Origin: Styela clava
Lineage: Eukaryota; Chordata; Ascidiacea; Stolidobranchia; Styelidae
Direction of reading: 5' to 3'
NCBI RefSeq assembly: GCF_964204865.1
Contig: NC_135259.1
Location: 15,138,974 to 15,202,973, forward strand
DNA length: 64,000 nucleotides
Shown: piece after piece, positions 22 through 63,040 of the stretch
How positions within the stretch are numbered: the first letter of the stretch is position 1
Layout of the letters: every line of letters starts with the position of its first letter
Program-made: the position numbers and the translations under genes
Notes under the pieces: generated by a model
What the model saw: the letters and a program-made list of their open reading frames with translations, nothing else
What the model was told of the DNA's origin: nothing
The model's database searches: none

Positions 22-1423
22 ATGAAGACCGTCGCAATTTTTCTTGTTGTAGTTGTGCTGGTTAGCCTGGAAATTTCCCCAACTGACTGTCAGATATTGA
101 TGATCAGTTCACCGGTACAGGGGAGGTAAGTTTATTAGATTTCTGTTATTGAAGACGAATTGTACATATGGATTGTTTTGGTATTATGTTGTTGTTGTTC
201 TAGTTAGTGTTTCTTTTCTTGTTGCTGTTAACTATTGGACCAATTGCTTTGAAATTTTCTACTGGTAAAAATTGTATCGTTCGCTAGAAGGCTCATTACT
301 TTCATCTGTTTCATAAATTTCTGTAGGCTCTAAGTGATTCGTTTTTTTATGTTTGGTGAAATCATCAAAATTAAATATTGAGCACTTGTGGCAGTTCTTT
401 GTTCGTGTTAGTAGTCAGGCGAAGTCATTAATACTGTGGGATAGGTGGTCTACTGCGAAAGATTGCATATTCATACTACTCTGGTTTCGCCCTCGTGTAC
501 CTACATTTGAGCATTGCTCTCTTACTTTCTATAGAAGATCGGATTGAAGTTTTGAATGTTTGCACTCTATCCTCTCATGCTCTGTATTTAAACATTCGAT
601 ATAATTTCACAAATTCTGAATTGTTTATTCAGGGTGATAAATGATGATTTTCAAAAGTTTTCTTCGCCGATCGTTCGACGATGGAAATTTATCATATTTT
701 AATTTACCATTATATATACATTACACTTTATACGAATTGATAAACTCATTCACACAAGTAGATTAATTGATATAACTTTGTTAACAAAGTACACCAGTGG
801 TTCCAACTAGGGTTCCGAGTAACCCAAGGGTTACGCTAGTTCCGTCCAGGGATTCCACAAGTTTAAATCCAAATCCTAGAGTCTGTATGGTGTACGTATA
901 TTGTTTGTCTATAATCAATACGCGACTATGAGATAATCATATAATAAGTGTGTTTCACTATTGTTCGGTGAAAGATCGCCAGACGTTCCGCGTCAAATCG
1001 TCGTTTCACATTTTATGATTATAAATATAAGCATATTTAGATATAATCAATTTCACGGGAATTTCTCGAGTTTTTGAAATGTTTGTTGGTGTAAAAACAC
1101 TGCTCTACATCAACTTTACGTTTTCTATATTTCAGATATACCACACATGCACCATCTGTATGGAAACGGAAAAAGCGGAATGTCGAAAAGGATGAAAATT
1201 TGCAGACTGAAGGTGAAATATAGCAAAATTGTTAATTAATGTTACACTTGAAAGTGAATTTATCTTTAAAAACAAATTCAAATCGAGTCAAAGCCGTGGC
1301 TTCAACATTTCAAAACCTGAAGCTCAGTATTAATCTGTGGGAAGCTTCATTCCCGTCAATGTTATCATGTAAGTTTAAACATCTCCACCTTTTATTACAG
1401 AAAGAGAGAAGGATTTATTTTGA
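22..1423 (+). CDS. A1, secreted peptide precursor (67 aa, 3 exons)
   Basis: Exons 22-125, 1136-1212 and 1401-1423. Donors are AG|GTAAG and AAG|GTGAAA, acceptors TTTCAG and TTACAG, and phases (2, then 1) match every other family member. Residues 1-23 form a hydrophobic signal peptide ending PTDC. A Gln follows, so a pyroglutamyl N-terminus is possible. Exon 2 gives YTTHAPSVW followed by KRKKR, then the acidic NVEKDEN. The tail is EEREKDLF. Trp sits right before the basic run, but no Gly is present, so amidation is not predicted. Poly(A) signals AATAAA lie at 1483-1488 and 1505-1510. It is the most divergent A copy, and its 10-residue ISSPVQ region aligns with A2-A8. The ATG at 22 is close to the window edge, so the promoter is not visible. 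Function is not recognised; secretion and dibasic processing are inferred. Confidence 0.8.
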
Positions 1424-1504
1424 CACGGGTATAATGAAGTATGAAAGATCAATCGGATTCACAATGCCATGGCGGGATTTTAAATAAATGAATATAGATG
1501 GAAA

Positions 1505-1510
1505 AATAAA
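1505..1510 (+). terminator. poly(A) signal of A1
   Basis: AATAAA lies 82 nt after the A1 stop codon; a second AATAAA is at 1483-1488. Confidence 0.55.
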
Positions 1511-2907
1511 GCGTAATATTGTTTGGTTTATACAATTGGGTATTCTGAAAAATATTGAGTTTTTGTACTAGTGAAGAAATTTATGACCATGTGATATAAT
1601 TGATATGATTAATTATCACCGTTGTCAGGTGATTTTGAACTTGATTTCCCACAAGTAGTAAGAAATGCTTCAGCAAGTTTGGAATTTTTTTTGCGGCCTT
1701 TGCTTACATTTCACTTCGAACATTGCTCAGCCACTGCATGAAATGTATCGCGCTAGTGTTTTCTGCAAGAACCGGAACCATTTTGGTTAGACATTTTCCA
1801 CCAAATTTATTACACCTGATGAGCTTAAATCCGAAAATTTTAATCTGCAATATCAATGGAGTAGAATTCACAGCGCTCTAAGCACTAGTTCACCACGCCT
1901 ATCGTTTCACCAATAATGTAAATAGTTACTAAGAGTGGAAATGATACTTTAGCTGTAATCTTGCGATGCAGATGCCAGTAGACATCATTTTGAACAAGAT
2001 TTGAAACACTATAGATGACAGGAGACAAGCCAGGAATCAGATAAACCTTCTTAAAAGACGATTACAGACATTTCAGACAATTATAGTCCGTCATAATATC
2101 TATTGCTACACTTCGAGCTATAAGTTGTTGAATCTCTGAGCTTAAATGAAATGCAATTTTTGACAAATACAATTTTGACCAAAAAGATAGAAAAGACAAT
2201 GAGAATTGAACAAAAACCCTCGTGCATTATTTTTTGTTTCACATTAGTTTTTAAACGTTTAAAGCTTCAATCCGACATCTTGAACTCATATATTAAGAAT
2301 GTACATTAGTAAACGTAGTGTAGTAAACGTTATACTTGTCAAAACTACTCATTCGTCTGCGCTTAAATTGTTGCCGTACTTGTTTTAAAATTAGTCAATG
2401 GGAGAGTATCATGGAGCAGAAGATACGTCGTTGATGGATAGAATGATATAGTTGAGATTTACTGCATTAGCGGTTGATCATATGCTTTTTTGGTTTCATT
2501 AAAGAAAAAATAGAATAAAGAATTGTTAATCTCAGCTTCCAATTTTAAAACTTAGTTATTGATAAATTTTTCACCCAAAATGTGCTTTATTTTTAGACAT
2601 GAAGTCCATTATTTTTAGATGTGATTTTAAAAGTACAACAACCTTAATATTACTGTAGTTTTTTATGGCTGTACGTGATTTGAACAACAACGAATTTGGC
2701 AATAGGTCGAGGTTTTGTACAACAAAATTTATTAGGTACAGATAAACTGTTCAGCTCAATGTTCTGTTTTGCAATAATTACATCCAACTTTACAACGCTG
2801 CACCTTCGAGATTTTGCGGTAACAAGATTATTAAATGATGTGCCATTGCCAGAAATATATGACTTTTATAGCATTTTCTAAAATTCTCGAATTAAAAAAA
2901 TAAATTT
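1511..2907. other. AT-rich intergenic stretch, no gene seen
   Basis: I see no exon with the family pattern, no conserved ORF and no repeat copy from elsewhere in the window. The short ORFs here have no recognisable domains. Confidence 0.5.
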
Positions 2908-3845
2908 CTAATATAGTTTATTCGTCATCACAACATAAGCACAAACATGAATACTGGAAAAGAGGAAAAAAGAACAAAATGTATGAAATATATTGTAAAA
3001 AGTCACAAATCTATTTATACAATTCCAAGTTGTAAAATTAATTAACATTTTACATAAAAAACTGAGATCGTCTTCTATTTTGAAAAGCGCACTTTTGTGA
3101 CAAAGAGAAGAAAATGTTGAATGACTCTGATTATTGAACATCTTCGAAAAGCTCAAAATCTGAAAAATAGGAAAATAATTTCAATTACTGGTATTATACA
3201 AAGAAAAACACTAAGCTGATTATTACTAGAAATAGAGTTTAAGCACAATGCGTGACATTTAAGCTATTATATTTTTAGATTATGCGATACTACAGGCGAA
3301 GTGTGATAAAATACATACGCCGCCACACTCTTACAAAGAATATGATTTGCATATAAAATAGAAAATATAATTGAATTGCATTGATTAAAACGTGTGGTCC
3401 AAAACCAATGTATACCACAATATTGAACGTGCCTGTATTTTCATCAATTTCAACTATTGATCTTCTTTTCTTTTTCCCCGCCCACCCCGGATCTGACGCC
3501 GACGGTTGTCTGAAGTGAAAAACATAACATGTTGGCAACAAATTTATTATTTTCGTTTAAATTAGAGTGTAAAAGTGAGAAATGTGCAATAATTTATTTT
3601 CTCACTTTTTTGAATTGTTGAAGCAGTTTTACTTAACAGTTTCAATATTACATTTGTTATATATTATACAAAATATTCATTTACCTAACTTAATTGATGA
3701 AATAATTTATGTAAAAATTAAAAAATCACCTTGACTCCGATTTACCGCTGCCAGGCTGACCCATAAAAATCATGTCCGCGCAAATAATGACTTGTACGAA
3801 AATGGAGCAATAAATGGCACACATGAGAACAAGTTTCAGATTCAT
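2908..3845 (-). CDS. C1, secreted amidated-peptide precursor (119 aa, GC donor)
   Basis: Exons on the minus strand: 3845-3730, 3509-3433 and 3074-2908. Signal peptide is about residues 1-23 (MNLKLVLMCAIYCSIFVQV start). Exon 1 ends phase 2 at AAG|GTGATT and the split codon encodes Arg. Exon 2, 77 nt as in A1, encodes QPSASDPGWAGKKKRR: Gly before KKKRR predicts a GWA-amide C-terminus, and Gln after the split Arg could cyclise. SIVEIDENT follows. The second donor is the rare GC type (ACAG|GCACGT). Exon 3 starts EDDLSFL, matching the other tails, but then runs on for about 48 residues with no early stop; the stop overlaps an AATAAA. The third exon has two candidate acceptors 3 nt apart (TAG and AAG). 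Exons 1 and 2 are well supported, exon 3 less so. Confidence 0.7.
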
Positions 3846-5257
3846 ATTTTTATATTTGACTGTTTAGGTATTATGTTGATACAAATTTATATTATAGCTA
3901 GTATGAAAAATATATCATATATAACAAATAATCTAGAATTATGGGAAATAAAATAAACATATTCTTCTTTATTTTCATATGTTTAGTATTGTCATGCTTT
4001 TCAGTATTCACCAATAAAACATCACAAGTTGGTTATTTACCGTATACCACCGTTTGTCGCTTTGATGAGATTTATATTTAACACTTTCAACCGCTACACG
4101 TAACCACCAAAAATATTTTATTGACAATGATCATTTGATAAATGTAAGTACACGGTTGTCAAGTGCAGCTGTGAAAGTTTGATGAGTCGTTAGTCATCAA
4201 ACGGCTTCTCTAGAGTTTCCTAAAGTTACGAAATATCTTTTTCGATTTTTAATTTTGTCATAATTTGTTGCCGCTTTTAAACTATATCGACTTATAGTGC
4301 TTACTTATTTTAACACGTTTCGCACAAACAATACAACCTCTGGCATCTTCACTGCACCAATTGAGCATGTAGCTCAACAATCCCTAGCTCTTATATCTAT
4401 AATAAATCTGTATTACATGAGCTATTGCGGCTTTGTCTGTACGGCCAAACTTTGATGAAGCATATGATACGAAGATTTTATAAAAAGGAAAGTGATCCCA
4501 TATATATAGCTACTGCGCGCAAAAGACATCATTTCAAACGAGCTTAAATTTAAGTCGCCACGTAATTTCCAATAATTATGTGCTCAAGTGTATATCTATT
4601 ATTGAGCCACAAAAGTGGATAGAACATAATCATACACAAGGCAATCATCGACAAATCAAATTACTTTTAATCATCCAAATAGAAGAGTTTATTAATCGAA
4701 CGAAGAGTTTATAAATATGATCAGAGGCATTTCAGGAATTAGGTATCGATCATTATTATCGTCAATATATGTAATTTTTGTAGGTATACTGAAATAATTA
4801 GGCCATTAGATAATTTTTGCCATTATCCAAACCCTTCTTTTTCGATTTGAGTCCTATTTGTTTTCAAACTCAAGTGGGTTTCAACTTAATTATAATTTCT
4901 AAAAAGCAAATGAGATTTAGTATTTATTACAGAGTACTTTACAATTTGTTTAATAAGTATAGTTTTAAAAGGTTTATTCTTTAAGTGTCGCCTTATAATG
5001 AAAGTATTTTGAACATTATCAATAACACTCCATTTATTATAAAAGAATATTTGGCAATATGAGCAGCGTATAACATTCAATCTTACATTCTATGCTTTTA
5101 CATCTTGTGTGTATGAGAGCATTTTTATTTTGAAAATACTCGTTATTGTGCGTTCAATAGTCCAGATAATTTAAAATAAGTTTGTTTTTAACAGTCTCTA
5201 ATATTCAGTTGTTTCCCACATACAATCTGAGCTACAATGTTCACCAATAAATGCAAA
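3846..5257. promoter_or_regulatory. shared upstream region of head-to-head C1 and C3
   Basis: 1.4 kb separates the two divergent start codons. It is AT-rich with no exon-like sequence. The C1(-)/C3(+) arrangement resembles the A(-)/B(+) pairs of the array, so this may be a bidirectional control region. No specific site is claimed. Confidence 0.35.
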
Positions 5258-6063
5258 ATGATGACTTTAGTGTTTGGGGCGATGCTTCTGCTGAACTTGT
5301 CATTCATTTCGGAGAAGTCATCAATGGTGGTTGCTCAATCATCAACAACAGTGAACCCAACGGGTCAAAGGAGGTAAGAAACTTTTTTCTAAAATCTAAA
5401 CAAGTAATCGTAGACGATGTTGATGTACCGAGATGATGTAACCGAACGTAATTGTTTCAAACGGAGTCTTTATCATGTATACAGGATCAACAAAACAACA
5501 TGAAAGTCCTATTCCCACTATATTTCTATTGAAAACAAGAATAGAGATAGGTAATAAACCACGATAAGCTTGTGATGATGTGTTTTAACAACCTCCGTCA
5601 ACCACGTTTCGGTCAGATACATAGAACACTTTTATTTACTCATATTATCACAGATATTCAACCCCGTGGGGTGGAAAGAAACGATCAGTGGGGACGGACG
5701 AATTTTTCGGTAAGTTTTACGAAAACATTCAAACCTTTTTCGTGGTTTTGTAGCAAACGAATTTACTGAAGTCCATATTTGACACACATAATGAAATAAA
5801 TATAATTGTATTGGCTAAAATCAGACAGAATCCAAACGTATTTATTTGGTTAACACACACTAATGGCAATGATTGTGCTCCAAAGTAAAATAATTTTTTG
5901 AGGTTATAGATCTGGTCTCTACGTGATATTCCTAATTGTATTGAATTAAAATCAATCAAACATCAGCGTAAAAGTGTATTGAGTTATAAAGTTGACTAAA
6001 TTATTTTTATTCCTTTTTATCTTAGATGGCATCCAACTACTTGACGAAAACCACTTAGATTGA
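5258..6063 (+). CDS. C3, secreted PWG-amide precursor (69 aa, 3 exons)
   Basis: Exons 5258-5373, 5654-5709 and 6026-6063; donors AG|GTAAGA and CG|GTAAGT, acceptors TCACAG and TCTTAG after pyrimidine-rich tracts. The start is MMTLVFGAMLLLNLSFIS, a signal peptide of about 26 residues, followed by Gln. The precursor then reads through VNPTGQRR to YSTPWGGKKR. Gly before KKR predicts a PWG-amide end. Cleavage at the internal RR would release a six-residue YSTPWG-amide. The acidic spacer SVGTDEFF and tail DGIQLLDENHLD follow. Exon 2 is the shortest in the family (56 nt). An overlapping ATG at 5251 opens a different frame with no signal peptide and is rejected. It forms a divergent pair with C1. No known family is recognised. 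Confidence 0.85.
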
Positions 6064-8035: not shown

Positions 8036-8041
8036 TTTATT
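8036..8041 (-). terminator. poly(A) signal of C2
   Basis: AATAAA on the minus strand, about 70 nt beyond the C2 stop codon. Confidence 0.55.
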
Positions 8042-8111
8042 GACAAGACACAATGTTATATGTTACACAATCATAGTTCTGTTGTATCGGGACTCCGCCG
8101 CTTTGTCCACA

Positions 8112-8814: not shown

Positions 8815-8901
8815 TTTGCGCAGAGTCTCATTCGCTCAAAAATAATATGATTAAAATCTAATCTGGTTCATAAAACAATTATTTTCAATAAGTACAGAAT
8901 C

Positions 8902-10888: not shown

Positions 10889-11807
10889 ATGAAGAATATC
10901 GCAATTTTTCTTGCTGTAGCTGTGTTAGTTCTTAGCCAGGACATTTCGTCCGTTGAATGTCGGACATTGATGATCAGTTCACCGATACAACATCGGTAAG
11001 TCTTTTAGATTTCTAATATTTTGTATAGCTGATAGAATATAAGAGTTTATAGGTTCTCCATCTCTTTATGTCTCTCCTACTTCTATCTTTTGATATATTT
11101 ACAAATTCTTCATTGTATAATGGTATACTGGGTAATAATGAGATTTAAATAAATATCTTCCTCTTCGATGAATCGAAAACACAAATTTACCTAATTACCG
11201 TTATACCAACATTATCATGGATTAAGCGATTCAATTAATTGAGTGATTAGTTGAAAGTAGTTTCTATAGCAACCTTTTGTTTTACATTTTCCAGATATAG
11301 CACAATACCACCATTCTACGCATATATACTGAAAAAGCGCAATGTGGAAAATGATGTGAATTTGCAGACGAGAGGTGACGACATTTTTGATTGTTGTTAG
11401 AAATTCTAAATTAATTTTTTTTTATTAAAATAAAATTTCACTGAGGTAATATAAGTTTTATTTCAGTCAAACAAGCGACGAAACGCGACCAAGTCGGATT
11501 AATAGTTTTATTTTTGCCCGAGATGCTCCCAATCTTAGTTCCAATACTTTGTGAGAGCCATACACCTATTCACTTAAGGCATCACGAGGTGAATTATTTG
11601 AAAGTGAAAGTTATGACTCGAAAAGGTCTCAGTTTTTAATCGAGAGTATCTTGAGGTTGCAGCTTCAACGTTTGAAACCTCAAGCTCAGTACTAAGTTGT
11701 AGGAATCTCCATTGTCGTGAATATTATCTTGTAAGTTAAAACATCTCTACCTTTTTTTTACAGAAAGAGAGAACATGATCATTGGACAAGCAAAAAATGA
11801 AGTATGA
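10889..11807 (+). CDS. A2, secreted peptide precursor (76 aa, 3 exons)
   Basis: Exons 10889-10995, 11295-11374 and 11764-11807, with donors CG|GTAAGT and GAG|GTGACG and acceptors TTCCAG and TTACAG. The signal peptide is about residues 1-24 (MKNIAIFLAVAVLVLSQDIS start, ending VEC). RTLMISSPIQH follows, then the split Arg codon and YSTIPPFYAYIL-KKR. The predicted mature peptide is about residues 25-48, without Gly for amidation and with no Cys. NVENDVNLQTR and ERENMIIGQAKNEV form the tail. An open frame at 11467-11639 after TTTCAG keeps the same phase and could be an alternative third exon. A2 is most like A5, its mirror image across the array. Confidence 0.85.
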
Positions 11808-13409: not shown

Positions 13410-14252
13410 ATGAAAAATATTGCAATTTTTCTTGCTGTGGTCATGTTAGTTCTTAGCCAGGACATTTCGCCCGTTGAAAGTCGGACATTGATGATCAGTT
13501 CACCGATACAAGACCGGTAAGTCTATTAGATTTCTGTTATTTTGTATAGCTGATAGAATATAAATGGTTATATGTTCTCCATCTCTTTATGCCTTGCCTA
13601 CTCCTATTTTTTGATATATTACCAATTCTTCATTGTATAATGGTTACCATTATACCAACCTCATCATGGATTAAGCGATTCAGTTAATTGAGTGATTATT
13701 TGAAAGTAGTTTCCATAGCGACATATCGTTTTTCATTTTCCAGATATAGCACAATACCACCGTTCTACGCATACAAACTGAAAAAGCGCAATGTGGAAAA
13801 TGATGTGAATTTGCAGACGAGAGGTGACGACATTTTTGATTGATGTTAGAAATTCTAAATTAATTTTACTTCAAAATAAAATTTCATTGAGGTAATATAA
13901 GTTTTATTTTAGTCAAACAATCGACGAAAAGCGACCAAGTTGGATTAATAATTTCATATTTGCCCGAGATGAACCCAATCTTAGTTCCAATACTTTCTAA
14001 GAGCCATACACCTATTTCTTTGTGGCAACACGAGGTGAATTAATTGAAAGTAAAAGTTATGACTCAAAAAGGTCTCAGTTTTGAATCGAGAGTATATTGA
14101 GCATGCAGCTTCAACGTTTAAGACCTCAAGCTCAGTACTAAGTTGTCGGAAACTCCATTATCGTGAATATTATCTTGTAAGTTAAAACATCTCTACCTTT
14201 TTTTACAGAAAGAGAGAACATGATAATTGGACAAGCAAAAAATGAGGTATGA
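13410..14252 (+). CDS. A3, secreted peptide precursor (76 aa)
   Basis: Exons 13410-13516, 13744-13823 and 14209-14252. Sequence is close to A2, with ISPVES instead of ISSVEC before the predicted cleavage, IQD instead of IQH, and FYAYKL instead of FYAYIL just before KKR. The tail is the same as in A2. The possible alternative third exon of A2 meets a stop much sooner here, which weakens the idea that it is functional. Closest relative is A4 (shared SPVES and YKLKKR). No B-type partner survives upstream: the sequence joins the hAT remnant directly at about 12943. Confidence 0.85.
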
Positions 14253-16380: not shown

Positions 16381-17225
16381 TCATACTTCATTTTTTGCTT
16401 GTCCAATGATCGTGTTCTCTCTTTCTGTAAAAAAAGGTAGATATGTTTTAACTTACAAGATAATATTCACGATAATGGAGTTTCCGACAACTTAGTACTG
16501 AGCTTGAGGTCTTAAACGTTGAAGCTGCATGCTCAATATACTCTCGATTCAAAACTGAGACCTTTTTGAGTCATATCTTTTAATTTCAATTAATTCACCT
16601 CGTGTTGCCACAAAGAAATAGGTGTATGGCTCTCAGAAAGTATTGGAACTAAGATTGGGTTCATCTCGGGCAAATATGAAATTATTAATCCAACTTGGTC
16701 GCTTTTCGTCGATTGTTTGACTAAAATAAAACTTATATTACCTCAATGAAATTTTATTTTGAAGTAAAATTAATTTAGAATTTCTAACATCAATCAAAAA
16801 TGTCGTCACCTCTCGTCTGCAAATTCACATCATTTTCCACATTGCGCTTTTTCAGTTTGTATACGTAGAACGGTGGTATTGTGCTATATCTGGAAAATGA
16901 AAAACGATATGTCGCTATGGAAACTACTTTCAACTAATCACTCAATTAACTGAATCGCTTAATCCATATGATGATGTTGGTATAATGGTAACCATTATAC
17001 AATGAAGAATTGGTAATATATCAAAAAATAGGAGTGGGCAAGGCATAAAGAGATGGAGAACATATAACCATTTATATTCTATCAGCTATACAAAATAACA
17101 GAAATCTAATAGACTTACCGGTCTTGTATCGGTGAACTGATCATCAATGTCCGACTTTCAACGGGCGAAATGTCCTGGCTAAGAACTAACAAGACCACAG
17201 CAAAAAAAATTGCAATATTTTTCAT
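16381..17225 (-). CDS. A4, secreted peptide precursor (76 aa)
   Basis: Minus-strand exons 17225-17119, 16889-16810 and 16424-16381, canonical splice sites as in A3. Differences from A3: the signal peptide has FFAVVLLVL, the segment before KKR is FYVYKL, and the tail reads ERENTIIGQ (Thr for Met). It is the left partner of a head-to-head pair with B1; the start codons are 1.96 kb apart, including a 386-bp insertion. TATA box at 17394-17402. Confidence 0.85.
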
Positions 17226-19186: not shown

Positions 19187-20127
19187 ATGAAACATTTGAC
19201 GATTCGGTGTTTTGTCTTATTGTCTTTTATGCTTCTGATGTCTTACAACATTGTTCATACTCAACTGACTACGGAAGGACCTATACAATCAAAGTATTCC
19301 ATAATCGTATATCCAAGTGCAATTGCTCCGCATACTTGTTTGCGCTACTGTAAAAGTCTGAATATTGTATTTTGACACACATTTGATTTAGAACATCACA
19401 GATTGATTTGATTGCAACATGATAGAATGAAATTATATGTGATCAATTTGATTGGCTAATAAATATATATATATAACATCGCTGATTTTTGGAGAATTTT
19501 ACTATTCAAATGTCATGCAATTGTATTTAGATGATATTGCTTTTATTTTAATCCAAATTATCTTTATCAATCAAGAACTAATTACATATGTATTATTTAT
19601 TTAATGTAAATATCTACATTCCAAATTGAATGTATTATATTTCCGCTATATGTAACTATAGAAAAATTTCTTTGGGGTGAAACAGCCTTCATGATAAACA
19701 TAGGCCTATCCGATACGTAAGTCCAGTCAAACGAAAATTAATTGATTCTCCATCTAAATATTATTTAATTTCTCATTTATAGACAAGGCAACACCCCACC
19801 GTGGCCAGGAAAGAAGAAACGGGACGTTGGAAAATTTGATAGAATTACAGGTTTGTTACTAAAAATTGCTCAGAAGTTTGCAGAAATATGAGCAAGACCC
19901 AATATAGAAGTAAAATAACAATAAATCAAAAACGTAATATACCGCACTATTTATAGCCTTTTCAGATACCGTACCATTTACCATGTATGCTCTTTTATAA
20001 CGAAAAATAATAACTCGTGTATTCAAATACTTTCTAAAATACAAATACTTACATGATATCTTATAAAGTTTTTTCTTGTACAGATGACGAATTATTCTTT
20101 GACGACGACTCACAGATTGATCACTGA
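19187..20127 (+). CDS. B1, secreted PWP-amide precursor (72 aa)
   Basis: Exons 19187-19293, 19783-19850 and 20084-20127. The signal peptide is about residues 1-25 (starts MKHLTIRCFVLLSFMLLMSY, ends VHT). QLTTEGPIQS follows, so Gln26 may become pyroglutamate. The split codon encodes Lys here (Arg in B2 and B3). Exon 2 gives QGNTPPWPGKKKR; Gly45 before KKKR predicts PWP-amide. DVGKFDRIT and a strongly acidic tail DDELFFDDDSQIDH follow. The first donor is weak (AAA|GTATTC). TATAAAT lies at 19102-19108, 79 nt before the ATG, and an AATAAA at 20200-20205. B1 and A4 are divergent neighbours. The mature peptide has no Cys, so disulfide-rich families are excluded. Confidence 0.9.
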
Positions 20128-21684: not shown

Positions 21685-22603
21685 TCATACTTCATTTTTT
21701 GCTTGTCCAATTATCATGTTCTCTCTTTCTGTAAAAAAAAGGTAGAGATGTTTTAACTTACAAGATAATATTCACGATAATGAAGATTCCTACAACTTAG
21801 TACTGAGCTTGAGGTTTCAAACGATGAAGCTGCAACCTCAATATACTCTCTATTAAAAACTGAGACCTTTTCGAGTCATAACTTTCACTTTCAAATAATT
21901 CACCTCGTGATGCCTTAAGGAAATAGGTGTATGGCTCTCACAAAGTATTGGAACTAAGATTGGGTGCATCTCGGGCAAAAATGAAACTATTAATCCGACT
22001 TGGTCGCTTTTCGTCGCTTGTTTGACTGAAATAAAACTTATATTACCGCAGTAAAATTTTATTTTATTAAAGAAAAATTAATTTAGAATTTCTAACAACA
22101 ATCAAAAATGTCGTCACCTCTCGTCTGCAAATTCACATCATTTTCCACATTGCGCTTTTTCAGTATATATGCGTAGAATGGTGGTATTGTGCTATATCTG
22201 GAAAATGTAAAACAAAAGGTTGCTATAGAAACTACTTTCAACTAATCACTCAATTAACTGAATCGCTTAATCCATGATAATCTTGGTATAACGGTAATTA
22301 GGTAAATTTGTGTTTTCGATTCATCGATGAGGAAGATTTTTATTTAAATCTTATTATTACCCAGTATACCATTATACAATGAAGAATTTGTAAATATATC
22401 AAAAGATAGAAGTAGGAGAGACATAAAGAGATGGAGAACCTATAACCTTTTATATTCTATCAGCTATACAAAATAATAGAAATCTGATAGACTTACCGGT
22501 CTTGTATCGGTGAACTGATCATCAATGTCCGACATTCAACGGACGAAATTTCCTGGCTAAGAACTAACACAACTACAGCAAGAAAAATTGCGATATTCTT
22601 CAT
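21685..22603 (-). CDS. A5, secreted peptide precursor (76 aa)
   Basis: Minus-strand exons 22603-22497, 22197-22118 and 21728-21685. Exon 2 is identical in protein to A2 (FYAYIL-KKR) and the precursor shares SSVEC with A2, while exon 1 ends IQD as in A3. It has a TATA box at 22771-22777. The upstream region of a B gene follows it but the B gene itself is missing (replaced at about 23700 by a hAT fragment), so A5 has lost its partner. Confidence 0.85.
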
Positions 22604-24187: not shown

Positions 24188-25086
24188 TCATACTTCATTG
24201 TTTGCTTGTCCAATGATCGTGTTCTCTCTTTCTGCAAAAAAGGTAGAAATGTTTTAACAAAATAATATTCACGATAATGGAGATTCCGACAACTTAGTAC
24301 TAAGCTTGAGGTTTAGAACGTTGAAGCTGCAAGCTCAATATACTCTCGATTCAAAACTGAGACCTTTTCGAGCCATAACTTTTACTTTCAATTAATTCAC
24401 CTCGTGATGCCACAAAGAAATAGGTGTATGGCTCTCTCAAACTATTGGAACTAAGATTGGGTGCATCTCGGGCAAAAATGAAACTATTAATCGCTTTTCG
24501 TCGCTTGTTTGACTGAAATAAAACTTATATTACCTCAGTGAAAAATTATTTTAATAAAGAAAAATTAATTTAGAACTTCTAACATCATTCAAAAATGTCG
24601 TCACCTCTAGTCTGCAAATTCACATCATTTGCCACGTTGCGCTTTTTCAGTTTATATACGTGGAATGGTGGTATTGTGCTATATCTGAGAAATCTAAAAC
24701 AAAAGGTTGCTATAGAAACTACTTTCAACTAATAACTCAATTAACCGAATCGAATAATGATGATGTTGCTATAATGGTAATCAAGTAAATTTGTGTCTTG
24801 ATTCATCGATGAAGAAGATTTTTATTTAAATCTCATTATTACCCAGTATACCATTATATCATAAAGAATTTGTGCAATTATATCAAAAGTTAGAGGTAGG
24901 CGAGGCATAAAGACATGAAGAACATATGACCCTTCAATTCTATCAGCTATACAAAATAACAAAAATCTAATAGACTTACCGGTCTCGTATCGGTGAACTG
25001 ATGATCAATGTCCGACATTCAACGGACGAAGTGTCCTGGCTAAGAACAAACACAACTACAGCAAGAAAAATTGCGATATTCTTCAT
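24188..25086 (-). CDS. A6, secreted peptide precursor (76 aa)
   Basis: Minus-strand exons 25086-24980, 24684-24605 and 24231-24188. It differs from A2 at the end of the predicted peptide (FHVYKL-KKR), has RTLIISSPIRD in exon 1 and NVANDV after the cleavage site, and the tail has QANNEV. A 10-nt deletion breaks the frame that is open in A2 as a possible alternative third exon. It is head to head with B2, 1.8 kb apart. TATA box at 25254-25262. Confidence 0.85.
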
Positions 25087-26912: not shown

Positions 26913-28139
26913 ATGAAACATTTGACGATTCGGTGTTTTGTCGTATTGTCTTCTATGCTTCTAATGTCTTACAACATTGTTCATACTCAACTGACTACGG
27001 AAAGACCTATACAATCAAGGTATGAGCATTCATTCCATAATCGTATATCGTATATCCAATCCAATATATCCAATAATCGTATATCCATGTGCAATTGCTC
27101 CGCATACCTGTTTGCGCTACTGGAAAAGTCTTAATATCGTATTTTATCACACATTTGATTTTGAACGTCATAGATTGAATTCAATGCAACATGATAGAAG
27201 GAAATTATATGTGATCAATTTGATTGGCTAATAAATACATATATATATATAACATCGTTGATTTCTGGAGAATTTTACTATTCAAAGGTCATGCGATTAT
27301 ATTTAGATGATATTGCATTTATTTCAATCCAAATTATCTTTATCAATCAAGAATTAATTACATATGTAATATTTATTTAATGTAATTATCTAAATATATA
27401 TTTCAAATTGAATGTATTATATTTCCGATATATGTAACTATAGAAAAGTTTATTTGGGGTGAAACAGCCTTCATGATAAACATGTAGGCCTATCCAATAC
27501 GTAAGTCCAGTCAAACGAAAATTAATTGATTCTCCATCTAAATATTTTTTAATTTCTCATTTTTAGGCTAGGCAACACCCCACCGTGGCCAGGAAAGAAG
27601 AAACGGGACGTTGGAAAATTTGATAAAATTACAGGTTTGTTAGTAAAAATTGCTCAGAAGTTTGCAGAAATATAAGCAAGACCCAATATAAAAGTCAAAT
27701 AACATCAAATCAAAAACGTAATATGCCGCACTATTTATATCATTTTTAGATACCGTACCATTTACCATGTATCCTCTTTTATAACAAAAAATAATAACTC
27801 GTGTATTCAAATACTTTTTAACATACAAACACTTACATGATATCTAATAAACTTTTTTTTTGTACAGATGACGAATTATTCTTTGACGACGACTCACAGA
27901 TAAGGATGCCAAGTATGAGTACTTACAAGTATTCGATTCTTATCCGATTCCTAAATTTTCGATTCCGATTCTCGATTCCGAATCTCGATTCCTCGACATA
28001 TCTTACCGAAAACACATACCCACCTAAGCAATACCATATGAAAGTAGTATGGGTATCCAATCTGCCACAGGAGACAAAATCGCACAAAAAAACAAATCCC
28101 TCAGAACCCACAGAGATTTTTAAAATAAATAAACGTTAA
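26913..28139 (+). CDS. B2, PWP-amide precursor with transposon-derived tail (148 aa)
   Basis: Exons 26913-27019, 27567-27634 and 27868-28139. Residues through DDELFFDDDSQI match B1 and B3, including TPPWPGKKKR (PWP-amide predicted). The last exon is then interrupted by a 478-bp hAT-like element, so the reading frame continues for about 77 foreign residues until a stop at 28137-28139. The signal peptide has VVLSSML and QLTTERPIQ in place of the B1 residues. The peptide part lies upstream of the insertion and should still be made. The poly(A) signal beyond the insertion, 28473-28478, is retained. Confidence 0.8.
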
Positions 28140-33565: not shown

Positions 33566-35325
33566 TTAAGATTGAAATGTGGGCTTCAAAGGAGAAATAG
33601 CGATGCGCATCACTGAATCTAGATGTTCATCTAGTAAACGAGTCCGTAGCTGGGATTTGTTTATTTTCATGATTGAGAATGCCTGTTCACAACTGTACTT
33701 GCTTGCAAATTGACAAACCCATATTTTTGCATTTCTCAACAAAACTGGATAATTCTCTTCTTCGAGGCGAGAGTAGAACTCAAGTAATGAATTTTCTTGA
33801 AAAACATCCTGCAAAACTTGATTTGACCTCAAATCCAGTAGTTCCAGTTGAGCGTCAGCGTCTTCAATATATTCAACATCCACACTAAATGGTCTTTGAA
33901 ATAAATCCATTTGCGGCTTCTGGTCATTAAGATCTTGAAAGCGTTTTAAAAAGTTTTGACGAAGGTCGCCGCACATTACGGCATACTTCTCAAAGTCAGG
34001 AACCAAGTCTGCCTTTCTTTTTTCAAAAAACAAAGACATACTTTCAAACTGGATCATGTTGCCAGTTGATAGTTGCTTCTGAAACAGTTCCAGTTTACTT
34101 TGTAAAGCATCGACAGCAAGTAGTTGGTTACGTCCTTGCATTCTGATACCTAGGTTGTTCATATGCTGTGTGAAATCTATCAAAAAAAGTAAGATCCAGC
34201 AACCAAGTATTGTCACACAGGAACGTCATAACATCTGCACCACTTTTAGTCTTCAGTGTTGGACTATTTTCCTGTAAAAATATTTTAATTTCGTTAAAAA
34301 GACTAAGAAAGCGCTGCAAAACGTTTCCTCGACTCAACCAGCGAACTTGGGAATGATACACCAAGTCTTTGTATTGTGTATTCATCTCCAACAAGAATGC
34401 TCGAAATTGGCGGTGCTTCAATCCTTTCGACAGAATTTCATTCACACATTTTACAAAAACGTCCATAACATGGGTCATCTTTATACTTTGAGCACAAAGA
34501 CACTCCTGGTGAATGAAGCAGTGAAGAGTAATAATGTCCTGGGTGAAATCAGGTTCTTGCAAGTACTTTTTCAATAGTGCCACCGCGCCATTTTTTTTTA
34601 CCAATCATAGAAGCTGCACCATCTGTCGTCAATCCAACTAGTTTGGTAAATTTGGAATTTTATAGTGAAGCGCATTTAATACAGCTTCTTTTATATATAC
34701 CCCGCGTGTTGTGTCATAGAGAGGAATAAGTCCGACAAGATCTTCATAAACAGATAGGTCTTTTGCTACAGTGCGGATAAAAACTGATAATTGCGCAGTA
34801 TCACTCATATCACAGCTTTCATCAAGAAGCCAGTGAAAAGTATTCGAAGGAATCTACTTTCGATTGCAGTTGCTCATTTAGATTTTCGCCAATTTCTTCA
34901 ATTCTTCTAGCAATGGTAGTCCTCGAAAGGCTGATTTTTTAAAAAAGATGTGCTTGCTTAGGAACTATCAACTCTGCCACGTCCTGAATGCATTCTCGAG
35001 CAAACTCGCCATCTGTGAATGGCCTCGAATAGCGAGCAACTTTTTCTGCTACAACATAAGATGCGGCGATGGCGTTTTCATTTTCCCCGATGGGCTTTTT
35101 AAATACGTTCTGTTGCGCGTCAAGGGCATTTTTTAGTTTCGCCACCAAATTTTCTCTTAGTTTTCCGACAGTTATATCATATTTGTGTTGATGTTGGGCG
35201 TTATAGTGTCTCTTCACCTTGAAGGCTTTCGAAATAGAAAATGTTGTGCCACAAACCAAGCATAAGGGCTTCTGCTTCCATTCGATAAAAAAAAAGTCAC
35301 TTGTTCTTAAATTCACGAGTCTCAT
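33566..35325 (-). pseudogene. hAT transposase (ZBED/GTF2IRD2-like), frameshifted
   Basis: Read on the minus strand, N to C: a zinc-finger-like start with PLCLVCGTTF and HYNAQHQH; LDESCDMSDTAQLSVFIRT and TTDGAASMIG, typical of this transposase group; HCFIHQECLCAQ; QVRWLSRGNVLQRFLSLF; and the C-terminal dimerisation domain with FASKYSCEQAFSIMKINKSQ. At least three frame breaks occur (near 34180, 34650 and 34820-34940), so no full-length protein is made. It is the transposase of the surrounding element. Confidence 0.9.
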
Positions 35326-40168: not shown

Positions 40169-41095
40169 TCACCGTAGAAGTTTTTTGTTGATAATTTCCC
40201 ATACCATGGCTCGCTGAAAGTAAGGCATATCTCGCTGGGAAAATGTTAAGTCTGATTTAGAAGTAATATACTCTGCAAATTTGCAAGCAAAGACTCCACA
40301 ATCTGATCCATTCATTTGTTGCGGTATATCAGACATTGACAACAGTTGCCAGTCAGAAAGATTGATCTCTGATCCTTTTTTATTCTTGTGCTCACAAAGA
40401 AGATAATTTTTTAGGATTTCAAGGCATTCCCGATTGGCTCCACCCATTGAATCATAATATCTTATTTGTTTCGATATGAAATCAACGACAGCTAGACACC
40501 AATGCACGCCAAGATGTATTGGATACAGAACGATGTCTTTGGAAAATATATCAACTTTTTTTTGTCCACCGACGTACTGATGTATAAGATTGTGTACTCA
40601 ATCGAGGATAAAAGAATGTATTCATGGAATGTACTGCGGGGTAATCTTTTACATCTTTAGAGCGCTGGACAATCAATTCCATATAAAAATTTATAATTTC
40701 ATCATTAAGCCAATTTAGACCGAACAAAGTCGACATGTGCTCGCGGGTTATTGAAATGTTGAAACACTCAGAAAGGACTTGATTTGGAGGATATGGAACT
40801 AGTGCTTTGTTTATGTGTTCGCTCATGTCGGAAGTCAGCTCAGGAAGTGTGGGTTGTTCGATAATCTTTTTTTCTTGGAGTTTTAATTTGTTGTGTAAAA
40901 TTTCAGCCAGAAGTGCATCTTTCTCTTTACGTTTCTCGTGCCAAAGTCGGGCTCGTGTTTCTTCAGCACGTGTTGGAGCTTGCCTTTGACGAACTCGGCG
41001 ATTGTATGTCTTTAACATGTCAGGAACGAAATTTTGTGACAAATATGGAGAAGAAAACTCTTTCAAAATCTGGCTTCTCTTTATACTATCATTGA
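40169..41095 (-). pseudogene. SENP1/2-like SUMO protease, intronless copy with one frameshift
   Basis: The C48 cysteine-peptidase domain is clear: LNWLNDEIINFYMEL, then HWCLAVVDF (catalytic His), YYDSMGG (catalytic Asp) and [19 protein letters not shown] (oxyanion Gln, nucleophile Cys). All catalytic residues are intact. SENP enzymes mature SUMO and remove it from proteins. The N-terminal part is Arg/Lys/Glu-rich, as in SENP1. The frame is open from upstream of 41066 to 40551, breaks in a run of eight A (40557-40564), and resumes 40507-40169. Family genes normally have several introns; none is seen, so this looks like a reverse-transcribed copy captured by the element. The frameshift could also be a sequencing error. 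Confidence 0.85.
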
Positions 41096-41104
41096 GAGTG
41101 GTTT

Positions 41105-41830
41105 CTGTTTGACTTTCGGCACCCCGAAGGACTAAGTTGTATATACTTATCGCTTTGTGTAAAAACTTTCACTTGAATCGTTTTTTATTTCAATTTTTAA
41201 ATTTTCACGTCATTGGACGCAAAATGGACGTGTCCTTTGTCCTGTCCGATATCCATTTTGTTATTATGCTATTGTTGTAGTTGGAATTCTTCTTTTTGTT
41301 GTGAAAAAAAAATCGCGTTTCTCATTAACTACAAGACCAATTGCTTTTGCTTTGATTAGTTTCAAAGACTTGTGTGGTCTTTATGGAATTATTCATTCCA
41401 AAATTTTTAACTCTTAACTATATGCACATATATACTTGAGTTTTTACACCAACTTCATCTTGCAGTCAAGCGAAAAATTACAGCTTATAATTAGAGAAAA
41501 ATAAATTAAATTTTTTAAAATTTTTGATAAAAAAAAAACACACTTCTCTTATTTTTAACATCCATAAAACAGTATTCATCAAAAAATAAATGAAGAATCT
41601 AATTATATTGCAAAACTTCCACGCCAGAAGGACCAAATAATATATACTTATGAGAAATGCTTCGCGTCAGCATCTTTGTTTTGAATTGTTTTTTATTTCA
41701 ATTTTGGAACTTCATTTTATTGGACACGAAATGAACCTATAATTGCTTTCTTTTTCATGTTATTGTAACGTTATTGTTGGTGTAATTTCACTTTTTGTCG
41801 CTTTTCTCTATCTATGGAACCAATTGCTTT
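41105..41830. repeat. nested inverted repeat, left arm
   Basis: Reverse complement of 44220-44960, sharing GGACAGGACAAAGGACACGT and the ATTGGACACGAAATGAACC-type stretch. It starts immediately at the SENP gene's 5' side. Confidence 0.75.
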
Positions 41831-48455: not shown

Positions 48456-49368
48456 TCATACTTCATTTTTTGCTTGTCCAATGATCATGTTCTCTCTTTC
48501 TGTAAAAAAAAAGATAGAGATGTTTTAACTTACAAGATAATATTTACGATAATGGAGATTCCTACAACTTAGTACTGAGCTTGAGGTTTCAAACGTTGAA
48601 GCTGCAACCTCAATATACTCTCGATCAAAAACTGAGACCTTTTCGGGTCATACCTTTTACTTTCAAATAATTCACTTCGTGATGCCTTAAAGAAATAGGT
48701 GTATGGCTCTCACAAAGTATTGGAACTAAGATTGGGTGCATCTCGGGCAAAAATGAAACTATTAATCCGACTTGGTCGCTTTTCGTCGCTTGTTTGACTG
48801 AAATAAAACTTATATTATCTCAATAAAATTTTATTTTAAAGAAAAATTAATTTAGAATTTCTAACATCAATCAAAAATGTCGTCACCTCTCGTCTGCAAA
48901 TTCACATCATTTTCCACATTGCGCTTTTTCAGTTTATATACATGGAATGGTGGTATTGTGCTATATCTGAGAAATGTAAAACAAAAGGTTGTTATAGAAA
49001 CTACTTTCAACTAATAACTCAATTAACTGAATCGAATAATGATGAAGTTGCTATAATGGTAATCAAGTAAATTTGTGTTTTGATTCATCGATGGAGAATA
49101 TTTTTATTTAAATCTCATTATTACCCAGTATACCATTATATCATAAAGAATTTGTGCAATTATATCAAAAGTTAGAGGTAGGCGAGGCATAAAGACATGA
49201 AGAACATATGACCCTTCAATTCTATCAGCTATACAAAATAACAAAAATCTAATAGACTTACCGGTCTTGTATCGGTGAACTGATCATCAATGTCCGACAT
49301 TCAACGGACGAAGTGTCCTGGCTAAGAACAAACACAACTACAGCAAGAAAAATTGCGATATTCTTCAT
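48456..49368 (-). CDS. A7, secreted peptide precursor (76 aa)
   Basis: Minus-strand exons 49368-49262, 48966-48887 and 48499-48456. The exon 2 peptide ends FHVYKL-KKR as in A6, but the following NVENDV matches the other copies. The signal peptide contains VVVFVLSQDTSSVEC, also shared with A6. The pair A7/B3 is the best preserved copy of the A6/B2 block. TATA box at 49531-49539. Confidence 0.85.
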
Positions 49369-51196: not shown

Positions 51197-52141
51197 ATGA
51201 AACATTTGACGATTCGGTGTTTTGTGTTATTGTCTTTTATGCTTCTGATGTCTTACAACATTGTTCATACTCAACTGACTACGGAAGGACCTATACAATC
51301 AAGGTATGAGTATTCCATAATCATATGTCCAAGTGCAATTGCTTCGCATACTTGTTTGCGCTACTGTAAAAGTCTGAATATTGTATTTTAACACACATTT
51401 GGGTTTGAACGTCCTAGATTGAATTGAATGCAACATGATAGAAGGAAATTATCTGTGATCAATTTGATTGGTGAATAAATATATATATAACATCGTTGAT
51501 TTTTGGAGAATTTTACTATTCAAAGGTCATGCGATTGTATGCAGATGATATTGCATTATTTCAATCCAAATTATCTTTATCAATCAAGAATTGAGTACAT
51601 ATGTTTTATTTATTCAATGTAAATATTTAAATATTTTAAATTGAATTTATCTTATTTCTGCTATATGTAACTATGGAAAATTTCTTTGAGGTGAAACAGC
51701 TTTCATGATAAACATGTAGGCCTATCCAATACGTAAGTCCAGACAAACGAAGATTAATTGATTCTCCATCTAAATATTTTTTAATTTCTCATTTTTAGGC
51801 TAGGCAACACCCCACCGTGGCCAGGAAAGAAGAAACGGGACGTTGGAAAATTTGATAAAATAACAGGTTTGTTAGTAGAAATTAGTAAGAGTTTGCAGAA
51901 ATAAAAGCAAGACCCAATATAAAAGTCAAATAACATTAAATCAAAAACGTAATATACCGCATTATTTAGAGCCTTTTCAGATATCGTACCATTTATCATG
52001 CATCCTCTCCTAAAACAAAAAATAATAACTCGTGTATTCCAATACTTTTTAACATACAAATATTTACACGTTATCTAATAAACTTTTTTTTGTACAGATG
52101 ACGAATTATTCTTTGACGACGACTCACAGATCGATCACTGA
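51197..52141 (+). CDS. B3, secreted PWP-amide precursor (72 aa)
   Basis: Exons 51197-51303, 51799-51866 and 52098-52141; donor AAG|GTATGA, acceptors TTTTAG and GTACAG. The signal peptide matches B1. The segment is QLTTEGPIQSR then LGNTPPWPGKKKR, so QLTTEGPIQ..TPPWP-amide of about 19 residues is predicted, possibly pyroglutamylated. The spacer is DVGKFDKIT and the tail is DDELFFDDDSQIDH. This is the cleanest copy: no insertion, good splice sites, TATA and AATAAA (52213-52218) in place. Confidence 0.92.
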
Positions 52142-53105: not shown

Positions 53106-53651
53106 TCAAAGTGAACATTTAAATTGTTTCAAATCTCGTTCCAAACTCTATCTAATGCATCACCGACACGAAGATAAAGCATATCAATTACACTTTTAGG
53201 TGAATATTTATATAATATTGCGATATTGGCCTATATGGATTAGAGCGCTATGACTTCAACTATGCTTCATCGCAAATCAAATATCTCGAATTCATGGTGT
53301 GATAAATTGGATATGCAATGCATAACCGGAGCAATTCCGCTCGTTCCTGAAAATAGTTGGTTGTGCAGTGAATATTATGACTTGGCGTTTTTCGTACTGA
53401 AATGCCTGAATATGGCGTGTAATATGGCAAACTGTGTGAAGCATTTCATACTATCGACGAAAAATAAAATTAAAAATTAACAAGCGACAGTGATAAGCGG
53501 TTATATCACATGATCACAAAAGTTACCAATACTAAAACTACATGTTTATCTGTCTACACTACACAATAGACTAAACAACAGTACGATTTGTTTATGCAGT
53601 ATATATATTAATATAGAATCCCGCCATAACATTGTGAATCCGATCGATCAT

Positions 53652-54968
53652 TCATACTTCATCATCTGCTTGTCCAATAAAATTGTACGCTCTTTCTGTA
53701 ACAAAAGGTAGAGATGTTTTAACTTACAAGATAATATTAACGGCAATGGAGATTCCCACGACATAGTAGGCTACTGAGCTTCAGATTTTGAACGTTGATG
53801 ATATGATCATATTATTTCCTTAATACAGAACTGAGATCTTGTCCAGCAATAACTTGTACTTTCAAATAATTTGCATAGTAGTGCATCAAAGAATTTTTTT
53901 GAATAGAAGAATCTATTAGACCAGGGGTTCTCAACCTTTTTTCTGTCAAGTACCCCCATCCAAGTCACGAAACAATCAACGTGAAACCCCGGTAACCAGA
54001 CACCGAACAAACTTGTGATATACTGATATATTGACTAACAATTTGTTGCAACACCAATTTAATGACCATATGTAACTGAATTAAATCGTCTTGTTGATAT
54101 TATTGCCCTTGTCGTCTGCCTAACTGATAAATTCTTAAAATCTCTGCAAAGTTTCAATAAGCATAATCACTTCTCCAATGCTCGCAGCACACTGTATTTA
54201 GAGATTTCACAGTTTGTACGCGAAGCCTTGAACAAACTGAACAACTTTCACATTGTTGTGTCACAATCACAACAACGCAAAATCAGGGAAAATCTAAGTT
54301 TCAATGGCCGTCTAGTTTCAATGGGCACGAATTTTCCCATGGTAGTAATAAAAGATAACAAAAACAGCAACCTACAAAAACTCGACTGTCATCTAGGTAC
54401 CCCTGGAAATCTTCTCGTGAACCCCCGGGGATTCGCGAACCCCAGGTTGAGAACTCCTGTATTAGACTTTCGAATCTCACATTAATCAAAAATGTCATCA
54501 CCTTTTGTCTGCAAATTTACATCATTTTCTACATTGCGCTTTTTCCGTTCCCATGCGTAGAATGGTGGCTGTGTGCTTAACCTGCAAAATGTGAAACAAA
54601 CGATAGCTACTTTCAACTGAATCACTTAATACACGATGAGGTTGGTATAAAGGTAGTTAAAATATGGAAAACTTGTGTTTTCGATTCATCGGGGAAGAAA
54701 ATTTCTGTTTGAATCACATTAATTATCACCCAGGATTTTTTTTTTAAATGAATAATTTGTGAAATTATATCAACTGTGTAAAAGTAGCCGAGGCACAAAG
54801 AGATGTAGAACATACAACCCTTCAATCCTAACAGCTATACGAAATAACATAAATCTAACTGACTTACCGTATCGGTGAGCTGATCATCATTATCCGAGAT
54901 TCAACGGGCGGAATGTCCTCGCTAAAAACTAACATAACTACTGCAAGAAATATTGCGATATTCTTCAT
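53652..54968 (-). CDS. A8, divergent secreted peptide precursor (74 aa)
   Basis: Minus-strand exons 54968-54868, 54581-54502 and 53695-53652, same phases. Exon 1 is two codons shorter (ends SSPI then the split Arg). Exon 2 gives LSTQPPFYAWERKKR: Trp is present where A2-A7 have Tyr, as in A1. NVENDVNLQTK and ERAYNFIGQADDEV form the tail. Intron 2 carries a 538-bp hAT insertion, which leaves the splice sites untouched. It is the left partner of the decayed C6. TATATAAAG at 55173-55181. Confidence 0.85.
53922..54459. mobile_element. non-autonomous hAT in intron 2 of A8
   Basis: Ends CAGGGGTTCTCAACC and, inverted, CAGGAGTTCTCAACC. Perfect 8-bp duplication TATTAGAC (53914-53921 and 54460-54467). 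538 bp, same family as the element at 28917. The ORFs within (54228-54485, 54301-54501) are not genes. Confidence 0.92.
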
Positions 54969-59172: not shown

Positions 59173-59178
59173 TTTATT
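59173..59178 (-). terminator. poly(A) signal of C7
   Basis: AATAAA on the minus strand about 50 nt after the C7 stop codon. Confidence 0.6.
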
Positions 59179-59227
59179 GTGGATATCTTGCAACTAGTTT
59201 TTGTATAGTCGCCCGACTAGCGTGAAG

Positions 59228-59793
59228 TTATTGATGCTCATCAGGCGAGTTAATATCTCCAAACAGAATAATATCCATGTCTGAAACAGAAAACAAATGT
59301 TTGTAAAATATCACCAGATTAAAGCAAGGATTATTAATATATGAAGTTTCTCAAAAATTATGCGCAAGAACCTGCTTCACAGAAAGTTGGGCTTCTCATG
59401 CATAAATCCCCTTCTGGTAGCAGCCAAATTACATCTTTTGAATAATATTGAAATTAATTTTACCTAGATCATTCATATCATCTTCAAGAGATCTTTTCTT
59501 TTTTCCACTCCATGGTGCTTCTCCGCCTGGTACTCTTAATTATATCAACAACAATTGAAACCAAGGATAATGAAAACGATTAAAAAAAAATTGTGCAAGT
59601 TGCATTGGGATTCGGGTTCTCTCAAAAATGAAGAAACAGGAATCAACATTCAAAAATTGCTTAAAAAGATTTGTTTAGTACATTACCTTGATTCTGGTCC
59701 GTAAAATGGGTGTTCTGCGTTCCCTTCTTGAGCTCCTAACAATATTGCTACACACATCGCCAAAACAAAAATCCATTTTGTCAACGCAGCCAT
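59228..59793 (-). CDS. C7, secreted PWS-amide precursor (76 aa)
   Basis: Minus-strand exons 59793-59687, 59534-59464 and 59280-59228. The signal peptide begins MAALTKWIFVLAMCVAILLG and ends near GNA (residue 26). EHPFYGPES, the split Arg codon and VPGGEAPWSGKKKR follow; Gly46 predicts PWS-amide. The spacer is SLEDDMNDL, the tail DMDIILFGDINSPDEHQ, acidic. Donors AAG|GTAATG and TAG|GTAAAA are good; the first acceptor (ATTAAG) has a weak pyrimidine tract. All phases match the family. It is in tandem with C8. Confidence 0.88.
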
Positions 59794-62168: not shown

Positions 62169-62174
62169 TTTATT
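62169..62174 (-). terminator. poly(A) signal of C8
   Basis: AATAAA on the minus strand about 120 nt after the C8 stop codon. Confidence 0.5.
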
Positions 62175-62295
62175 ATTATTGTACTTCAAAATTAAAAAAG
62201 CAACAAGTAAAAGTAAACAATTCATAATCTCAATTTCATATGAGGTTGCATTTTTGTTTTTGTCTGTGATGTGGTGCTGCATATATTTACTGATG

Positions 62296-63040
62296 TCATT
62301 CAGGAATGTTAAAGAAAGCAACGTCCATGCCTGGGAAAAAAATATATATATTTAGCATGAAGCTATAAAACTAAATAAGCTACGTAAGTAAACCACCTTC
62401 GCTGAGCAAACTCCTTCTTTATATAAGAAGTCATACCAACGTTGAACTTCAATTTACCTGGATAGTACCCCATTCATAAAAACCTATTACTCAGTCTTTT
62501 GAAATAAATCTTACCTATATCACTTTGCGTATCGTCAACAGATCTTTTCTTCTTTACAGACCACGGAGTGCCTTCAGGAAATCTTAAAATGTACAGAAAA
62601 ATATATAACTATTGCATTTTCGGTACACCCGTAGTATGTGTACCAGGTTAGGGTTAGGCCATAATTTTATTTTGATTTCCCTTATTTTAGTTCTACTACG
62701 AGTTTGGGGACTGTCTGTGATAGCCATGTGAATTTACCTCCTACCCATAGACTTCAGTACCTTTACACAACTTGATTTAAAATAGGCGAACAAAATTAGT
62801 TACCTCCATATTGGTACACATACTTCTGGAGCGCCAACTTTTCAGTAACAACTGACTAAATATTATATACCACCGAGTATGTTTGTAATCTTGCAATTTG
62901 ATGATATGATTGTTTCACCTAACATGTTATGAAAACACTTCAAAAACTTACCTTGTTGGACCTGCATCTGTTAACTGAGCCGCAATAAGTATTGCAACAC
63001 ACATCATCAACACCGGAAACAACAGTTTGAAAGTAGCCAT
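62296..63040 (-). CDS. C8, secreted TPWSV-KKKR precursor (63 aa)
   Basis: Minus-strand exons 63040-62952, 62582-62515 and 62330-62296. The signal peptide begins MATFKLLFPVLMMCVAILIA and ends near TDA. GPT, the split Arg and FPEGTPWSVKKKR follow. Val stands where C7 has Gly, so PWS-amide is not predicted. SVDDTQSDI and the tail GMDVAFFNIPE complete it. Donors are AAG|GTAAGT and TAG|GTAAGA; the last acceptor is CCCAG. The MA(A/T) start, CVAIL and APWS/TPWS make it the nearest relative of C7. Confidence 0.85.

Follow-up and report, generated by a model that had tools for sequence, protein, structure and literature searches.

The 64-kb window analysed here (the whole stretch C13:15,138,974-15,202,973, in a 376.6 Mb genome of 379 contigs) carries 17 members of an array of small three-exon genes, and this array represents a real tunicate peptide family that is unrecognised by Pfam, PDB and open papers. 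These loci are probably tandemly expanded prepropeptide genes, each giving rise to a single short signalling peptide that is often amidated. Vertebrates have no closer relatives than the tunicates, which possess lineage-only peptides of unknown use, and the present array illustrates how intron phase and a processing site can expose a family that the searched profile libraries miss.

Gene architecture and subgroup relationships

The original prediction had placed 17 members in the window, distributed among subgroups A, B and C, and had described them as three-exon genes having a phase-2 and then a phase-1 intron, with a Lys/Arg site in an exon 2 of 56-80 nt. All 17 were located, 16 of them with open spliced frames, and every one of these 16 rebuilt models displayed the phases (2,1), an exon 2 of 56-80 nt with a KKR-type site, and a hydrophobic start in exon 1. 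The remaining member, C6 (57255..58128, + strand, span read by eye), is a degenerate copy, as had been proposed. Its exon 2 and exon 3 are recognisable, but its ATG is out of frame with the stretch of exon 1 resembling the relatives, and the acceptor of exon 2 is broken and unlike theirs. Splice sites were chosen by hand, steered by the proposed architecture, and the phases are therefore not a blind prediction. When searched in its splice context, the exon-2 motif gave 16 matches in the window, as opposed to a mean of 0.025 and a maximum of 1 in 40 first-order Markov windows, and an exon-2 profile retrieved 17 exon-2s with an expectation value (E) of 7e-4 or less, the next match (E 4) being at chance level. 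Since both the scan motif and the profile were trained on these members, the subgroups were then withheld one at a time.

Leave-one-subgroup-out profiles recovered B, C1, C2, C3, C7 and C8 each before any non-member (E 8.5e-7 to 0.2), and a profile built from B only ranked C3, C7, C8, C2, C1 and C6 next (E 0.006-1.7), also before any non-member. Homology extends across B, C and D, the latter being a new subgroup seen in the flanks of the window (see below), and these three have a common exon-2 core that reads, with variations, R-x(n)-P-x-W-x-G-K-[KR]-K-R-S-[IV]. The view that the subgroups share almost no sequence beyond their architecture was consequently wrong for B, C and D. The proposal of a single family of small precursors, each carrying a basic processing site, was borne out, with the qualification that the A subgroup is tied to the others by architecture and hardly by sequence.

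Exon-2 anatomy and predicted processing

The anatomy of exon 2 was examined in 26 sequences, 16 from the window and 10 from the flanks, with the window C6 omitted and three sister copies entered from their profile-search exon-2 sequences. The codon split by intron 1 encodes Arg in 25 of them and Lys in one. It is followed by 6-12 residues and by a basic run of at least three residues in 26/26, a run that is itself included in the gathering profile and motif. Gly directly precedes this run in 13 exon-2s, representing six of the nine subgroups (B, C1, C2, C6, C7 and D). The order within exon 2 is thus a split Arg/Lys codon, the peptide, KKR/KKKR, and then an acidic tail, the net charge of which ranges from -2 to -9 in 15 of the 16 window genes, with +2 in B2 and its run-on exon. 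At the other end of the precursor, when 447 open ATG starts are ranked by hydropathy alone, those of the family fall in the top 0.2-14%.

In the favoured reading, exon 1 would supply the signal peptide plus a short linker, while exon 2 would encode one peptide, in which Pro and Trp generally lie near the end, between the split basic codon and the KKR/KKKR-type run. Judging from these sites, the genes would be transcribed and the precursor directed to the secretory pathway, where a furin/PC-type convertase would cut after the basic run and a carboxypeptidase would trim it. Where Gly precedes the run, an amidating enzyme would generate a C-terminal amide of the ...PW-x-NH2-like type. The junction Arg/Lys may be an upstream cut, and cleavage at both sites would make exon 2 a peptide cassette. 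The acidic tail, completed by exon 3, would be a discarded propeptide, and the A genes would make a like product. Predicted amides are LGNTPPWP-NH2 (B2-B4), YSTPWG-NH2 (C2), VPGGEAPWS-NH2 (C7), QPSASDPGWA-NH2 (C1), HPVAPAWL-NH2 (C6 type) and IATPRWE-NH2 (D2), and YSTIPPFYAYKL is an example of a product predicted in free form. The products are most likely extracellular signals acting at cell-surface receptors. With the likely products legible from exon 2, the array offers short peptides that can be synthesised for testing.

Several observations weigh against this reading, the first of which concern subgroup A. With A left out of the profile, A1 came back with E 0.21, but A2-A8 did so only with E 2.8-4.4, interspersed with non-members; no A member was listed by B-only or C-only profiles; and with an A-only profile a non-member (E 0.039) outranked C2 (0.16). 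Because leave-out and single-subgroup profiles barely link it to the others, A belongs by architecture, and what ties it to the rest is a common set of intron phases, the junction Arg, a basic run and tail, and its place in the physical array. The processing signals are also uneven: Gly is absent from all 10 A exon-2s, C3, C8 and D3, and Trp lies at most four residues from the basic run in 20/26 exon-2s, the six exceptions being A2-A7. Upstream of the peptide there is mostly only one basic residue, a weaker cleavage site, a naive (-3,-1) rule for the signal cut gave no site for C2, and an untrimmed basic run would leave the product with a cationic end. Neuropeptide precursors, moreover, are usually multi-copy, as opposed to the single-copy genes of this array. 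Finally, exon 1 of A2-A7 (mean pairwise divergence 0.067) has changed essentially as much as intron 2 (0.069).

Comparison with known peptide families

The failure to match the genes to a known family was repeated in searches of Pfam and PDB with 15 of the 17 members and of the open literature. No Pfam family was above cut-off for these 15, a PDB search with their profile returned no match, and neither a matching family nor any of six exact motif strings was found in open PMC papers. Below the Pfam cut-offs, Sex_peptide (PF08138) was approached by one of the 15 members (E 0.26, 11.9 bits versus the 25 needed, residues 1-16 only) and DUF1514 by one other (E 0.24). Among established signalling precursors, those of Trp-amides (for example APGWamide, GLWamide) have Gly and a dibasic site as amidation signal, Trp near the C terminus, and many copies each. 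The amidation signal and the near-terminal Trp are in common with the array, which differs in having one peptide per precursor, a residue after the Trp and, in some subgroups, no amidation signal. Closer in taxonomic terms is CiEMa, a Ciona haemocyte peptide amide, which from the excerpts of its description is likewise tunicate-restricted, short, amidated and released from a secreted precursor (PMC10888236); it is unlike the array in sequence, it is cut at Trp-Asn and Gly-Asp, and the same excerpts describe one gene, not an array.

Host defence was another of the roles originally offered. Under this explanation, the product would be active with its basic run included, and the acidic tail would be a propiece that neutralises it, as is the case for mussel myticalins. 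The excerpted accounts of myticalins and modiocalins do resemble the array in the order of parts, with a signal peptide, one central peptide, a dibasic site and an acidic C-terminal extension, in the phase-1 intron within that extension, and in forming a multigene family with pseudogenes (PMC5577615, PMC12294457), which recalls the tandem organisation, acidic tails and degenerate copy seen here. An anionic end region is also present in most Ciona candidates for linear cationic antimicrobial peptides (LCAMPs), and the ascidian LCAMPs (Ci-MAM, styelins, clavanins), as far as the excerpted text goes, are tunicate products with a short precursor in which a signal peptide is followed by the peptide and, in the majority of candidates, by an anionic tail (PMC7387483). 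The likeness to myticalins is nonetheless incomplete. Their genes are described, in the excerpts, as interrupted by an intron immediately upstream of the ATG and as encoding the signal, the mature peptide and the dibasic site on a single exon (PMC5577615), whereas a phase-2 intron parts exons 1 and 2 in the 16 window and seven flank models. Charge differs as well, since myticalins are characterised there as cationic and rich in Pro and Arg (PMC5577615), whereas the predicted charge of the array products is near neutral (-3 to +1 in the 15 genes with a guessable signal cut), and no arginine run or cationic stretch occurs besides the processing site. Likewise, the ascidian LCAMPs are portrayed in the excerpts as cationic amphipathic helices, and the Ciona candidates as lacking basic processing motifs (PMC7387483), while the array has KKR-type runs and short Pro/Trp peptides; compared on charge alone, its products have no counterpart of the LCAMP cationic active region. 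Because the predicted products are near neutral, a classic, membrane-active antimicrobial is disfavoured, unless basic residues stay attached, and we regard host defence as an unlikely function. Between the two other suggested roles, neural and gamete signalling, these data do not discriminate.

Selective constraint and gene signals

Mean pairwise divergence among A2-A7 fell from 0.067 in exon 1 to 0.051 in exon 2 and 0.039 in exon 3, and was 0.099 in intron 1 and 0.069 in intron 2; indels occur in the introns but not in the exons. B1-B3 show a similar picture, with exon values of 0.037, 0.039 and 0.000 and about twice as much in the introns (0.082 and 0.104). The nonsynonymous to synonymous ratio (dN/dS) across A2-A7 was 0.36 (signal 0.48, peptide region 0.36, tail 0.23), and selection among these genes is purifying. 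Values were higher in pairs with A8 (0.40-0.90, single pairs reaching 0.78-0.90) and in B1-B2 (0.59). The family had been described as fast-changing, which holds between subgroups, B and C members being 18-28% identical to A1, but not within A2-A7.

These figures bear on a further explanation, in which the products would be reproductive or self-recognition peptides, such as a gamete or larval cue, diversified between subgroups. Strong subgroup divergence with retention of the architecture would fit such a role, as would the tandem and inverted duplications, many of them about 90% identical, and the tandem receptor-like family found nearby. Yet dN/dS, by which positive selection was looked for in the A genes, gave no sign of it: no excess of amino-acid changes was found in A2-A7, the values for single A8 pairs notwithstanding, and we consider this explanation improbable.

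All of the 16 genes except A8 have poly(A)-type hexamers no more than 400 nt from the stop, and TATA-like elements were recognised by eye upstream of A2-A8 and B1-B3, both in AT-rich DNA and with no chance control.

Extent of the array and its host genome

Overall, 324 kb of C13 were examined (15,009-15,333 kb), comprising the window, 100 kb on each side and a further 30 kb on each side. The array outruns both window ends, the flanks contributing 10 extra exon-2s and one remnant, so that 27 recognisable exon-2s occupy about 101 kb, spanning about C13:15,107.4-15,208.0 kb. Searching the 100-kb flanks with the exon-2 profile identified nine of these (one B, two C7-type, two C6-type, two A8-type and two D), the first two D exon-2s being weak (E 0.024 and 0.033). 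The third D member was located via its exon 1, and the D-type remnant (E 0.034) by using a profile with D included. Seven flank genes were modelled at full length, all seven with phases (2,1) and again with hand-picked splice sites, including two intact C6-type genes; the three without a full-length model were D1, D3 and an A8-type copy lacking an ATG at the aligned position. An A-type exon 1 also occurs in the flank near C13:15110732, with no exon 2 found alongside it. No exon-2 was detected by the profile in the additional 30 kb on each side (best E 0.29, judged to be chance). A genome-wide search with a B protein, in which 10 candidates were scored, placed all 8 matches at E of 0.001 or less in this locus. 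Within the window, A and B genes are carried on large duplications, both direct and inverted, at 8.9-28.8 kb and 48-52 kb, most of them 86-98% identical.

Such duplications raise the question of whether the genes are mostly non-functional passengers of segmental duplication. The degenerate C6, the run-on last exon of B2, the flank A-type exon 1 without exon 2, the A8-type copy without an aligned ATG and the D-type remnant are all of the kind that this would produce, but open frames and splice sites in 16 of the 17 window genes, the two intact C6-type flank genes and the constraint in A2-A7 and B make it very improbable as an account of the array.

Elsewhere in this genome, contig C9 contains a cellulose-synthase exon (E 2.2e-4, above the family cut-off), followed at most 5 kb on by a GH6 exon (E 9.9e-11, above cut-off); a second GH6 piece was below cut-off (E 5e-4). 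Cellulose synthase joined to GH6 is a tunicate mark.

A neighbouring family of receptor-like proteins

Some 16 kb beyond the last D gene, a tandem family of intronless receptor-like membrane proteins begins. It comprises six copies (C13:15,224,021-15,248,044), five open and one frame-split, to which is added a broken copy within the peptide array (C13:15,112,680-15,113,664); none was found in the extra 60 kb beyond the flanks. Where the frame is open the proteins are 329-340 residues long, and by a plain hydropathy count each of the five open copies has 5-7 hydrophobic segments. Aligning four copies revealed 2-3 N-glycosylation sequons at the amino end, an invariant Cys pair in the two outer loops and, with the seven-segment layout of one copy, a higher content of K/R in the loops assigned inside than in those outside. 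Pfam and NCBIfam gave nothing above cut-off, and a PDB profile search nothing at E of 10 or less. The resemblance to class A receptors suggested here is one of topology only. This family supplies candidate partners for the array peptides. A bolder proposal is that of a ligand-receptor locus, in which the peptide array and the receptor-like family would be co-duplicating and co-diversifying partners in tunicate-specific chemical recognition, an idea that we put forward as speculative and rather improbable.

Gene models and other elements of the window

Subgroup A comprises eight genes in the window, of which seven were recovered by tblastn with A1 exon 1. A1 itself (22..1423, +; exons 22-125, 1136-1212 and 1401-1423; phases 2,1) encodes 67 residues. 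Products of 76 residues are encoded by A2 (10889..11807, +; exons 10889-10995, 11295-11374, 11764-11807), A3 (13410..14252, +; 13410-13516, 13744-13823, 14209-14252), A4 (16381..17225, -; 17225-17119, 16889-16810, 16424-16381), A5 (21685..22603, -; 22603-22497, 22197-22118, 21728-21685), A6 (24188..25086, -; 25086-24980, 24684-24605, 24231-24188) and A7 (48456..49368, -; 49368-49262, 48966-48887, 48499-48456), and one of 74 residues by A8 (53652..54968, -; 54968-54868, 54581-54502, 53695-53652). An alternative exon 3 for the A genes, with an acceptor nearer exon 2 and a long frame, was set aside, as the later acceptor is the one common to A1.

In subgroup B, B1 (19187..20127, +; exons 19187-19293, 19783-19850, 20084-20127) and B3 (51197..52141, +; 51197-51303, 51799-51866, 52098-52141) each encode 72 residues, with the peptides QGNTPPWP(G)KKKR and LGNTPPWP(G)KKKR, respectively. 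B2 (26913..28139, +; 26913-27019, 27567-27634, 27868-28139) also keeps its frame open, although the last exon, 272 nt long versus 44 nt in B1 and B3, continues into unrelated sequence.

Besides C6, the C genes of the window are C1 (3131..3845, -; exons 3845-3730, 3509-3433, 3159-3131; 73 residues; QPSASDPGWA(G)KKKRR), C2 (5237..6063, +; 5237-5373, 5654-5709, 6026-6063; 76 residues; YSTPWG(G)KKR), C3 (8112..8814, -; 8814-8720, 8408-8338, 8140-8112; 64 residues; IGTPSPPWGGS-KKR), C7 (59228..59793, -; 59793-59687, 59534-59464, 59280-59228; 76 residues; VPGGEAPWS(G)KKKR) and C8 (62296..63040, -; 63040-62952, 62582-62515, 62330-62296; 63 residues; FPEGTPWSV-KKKR). All donors of the window models are GT except that of C1 intron 2, which is GC (3431-3432), and a GC donor likewise occurs in intron 2 of the two intact C6-type flank genes (C13:15120797 and 15132637).

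Scans of the 64-kb window for Rfam families and transfer RNAs were empty. The strings AGGCCTA and TAGGCCT together occur 13 times, a raw count given with no expectation. Remnants of a hAT transposase are present in several frames at 33566-35325 on the minus strand (Dimer_Tnp_hAT, E 1.2e-6). Also on the minus strand, 40172-41120 contains a copy of a SENP/Ulp1-like protease, the first part of which matches Peptidase_C48 (E 3e-8); this copy is intron-free in two overlapping frames and looks like a retrocopy.

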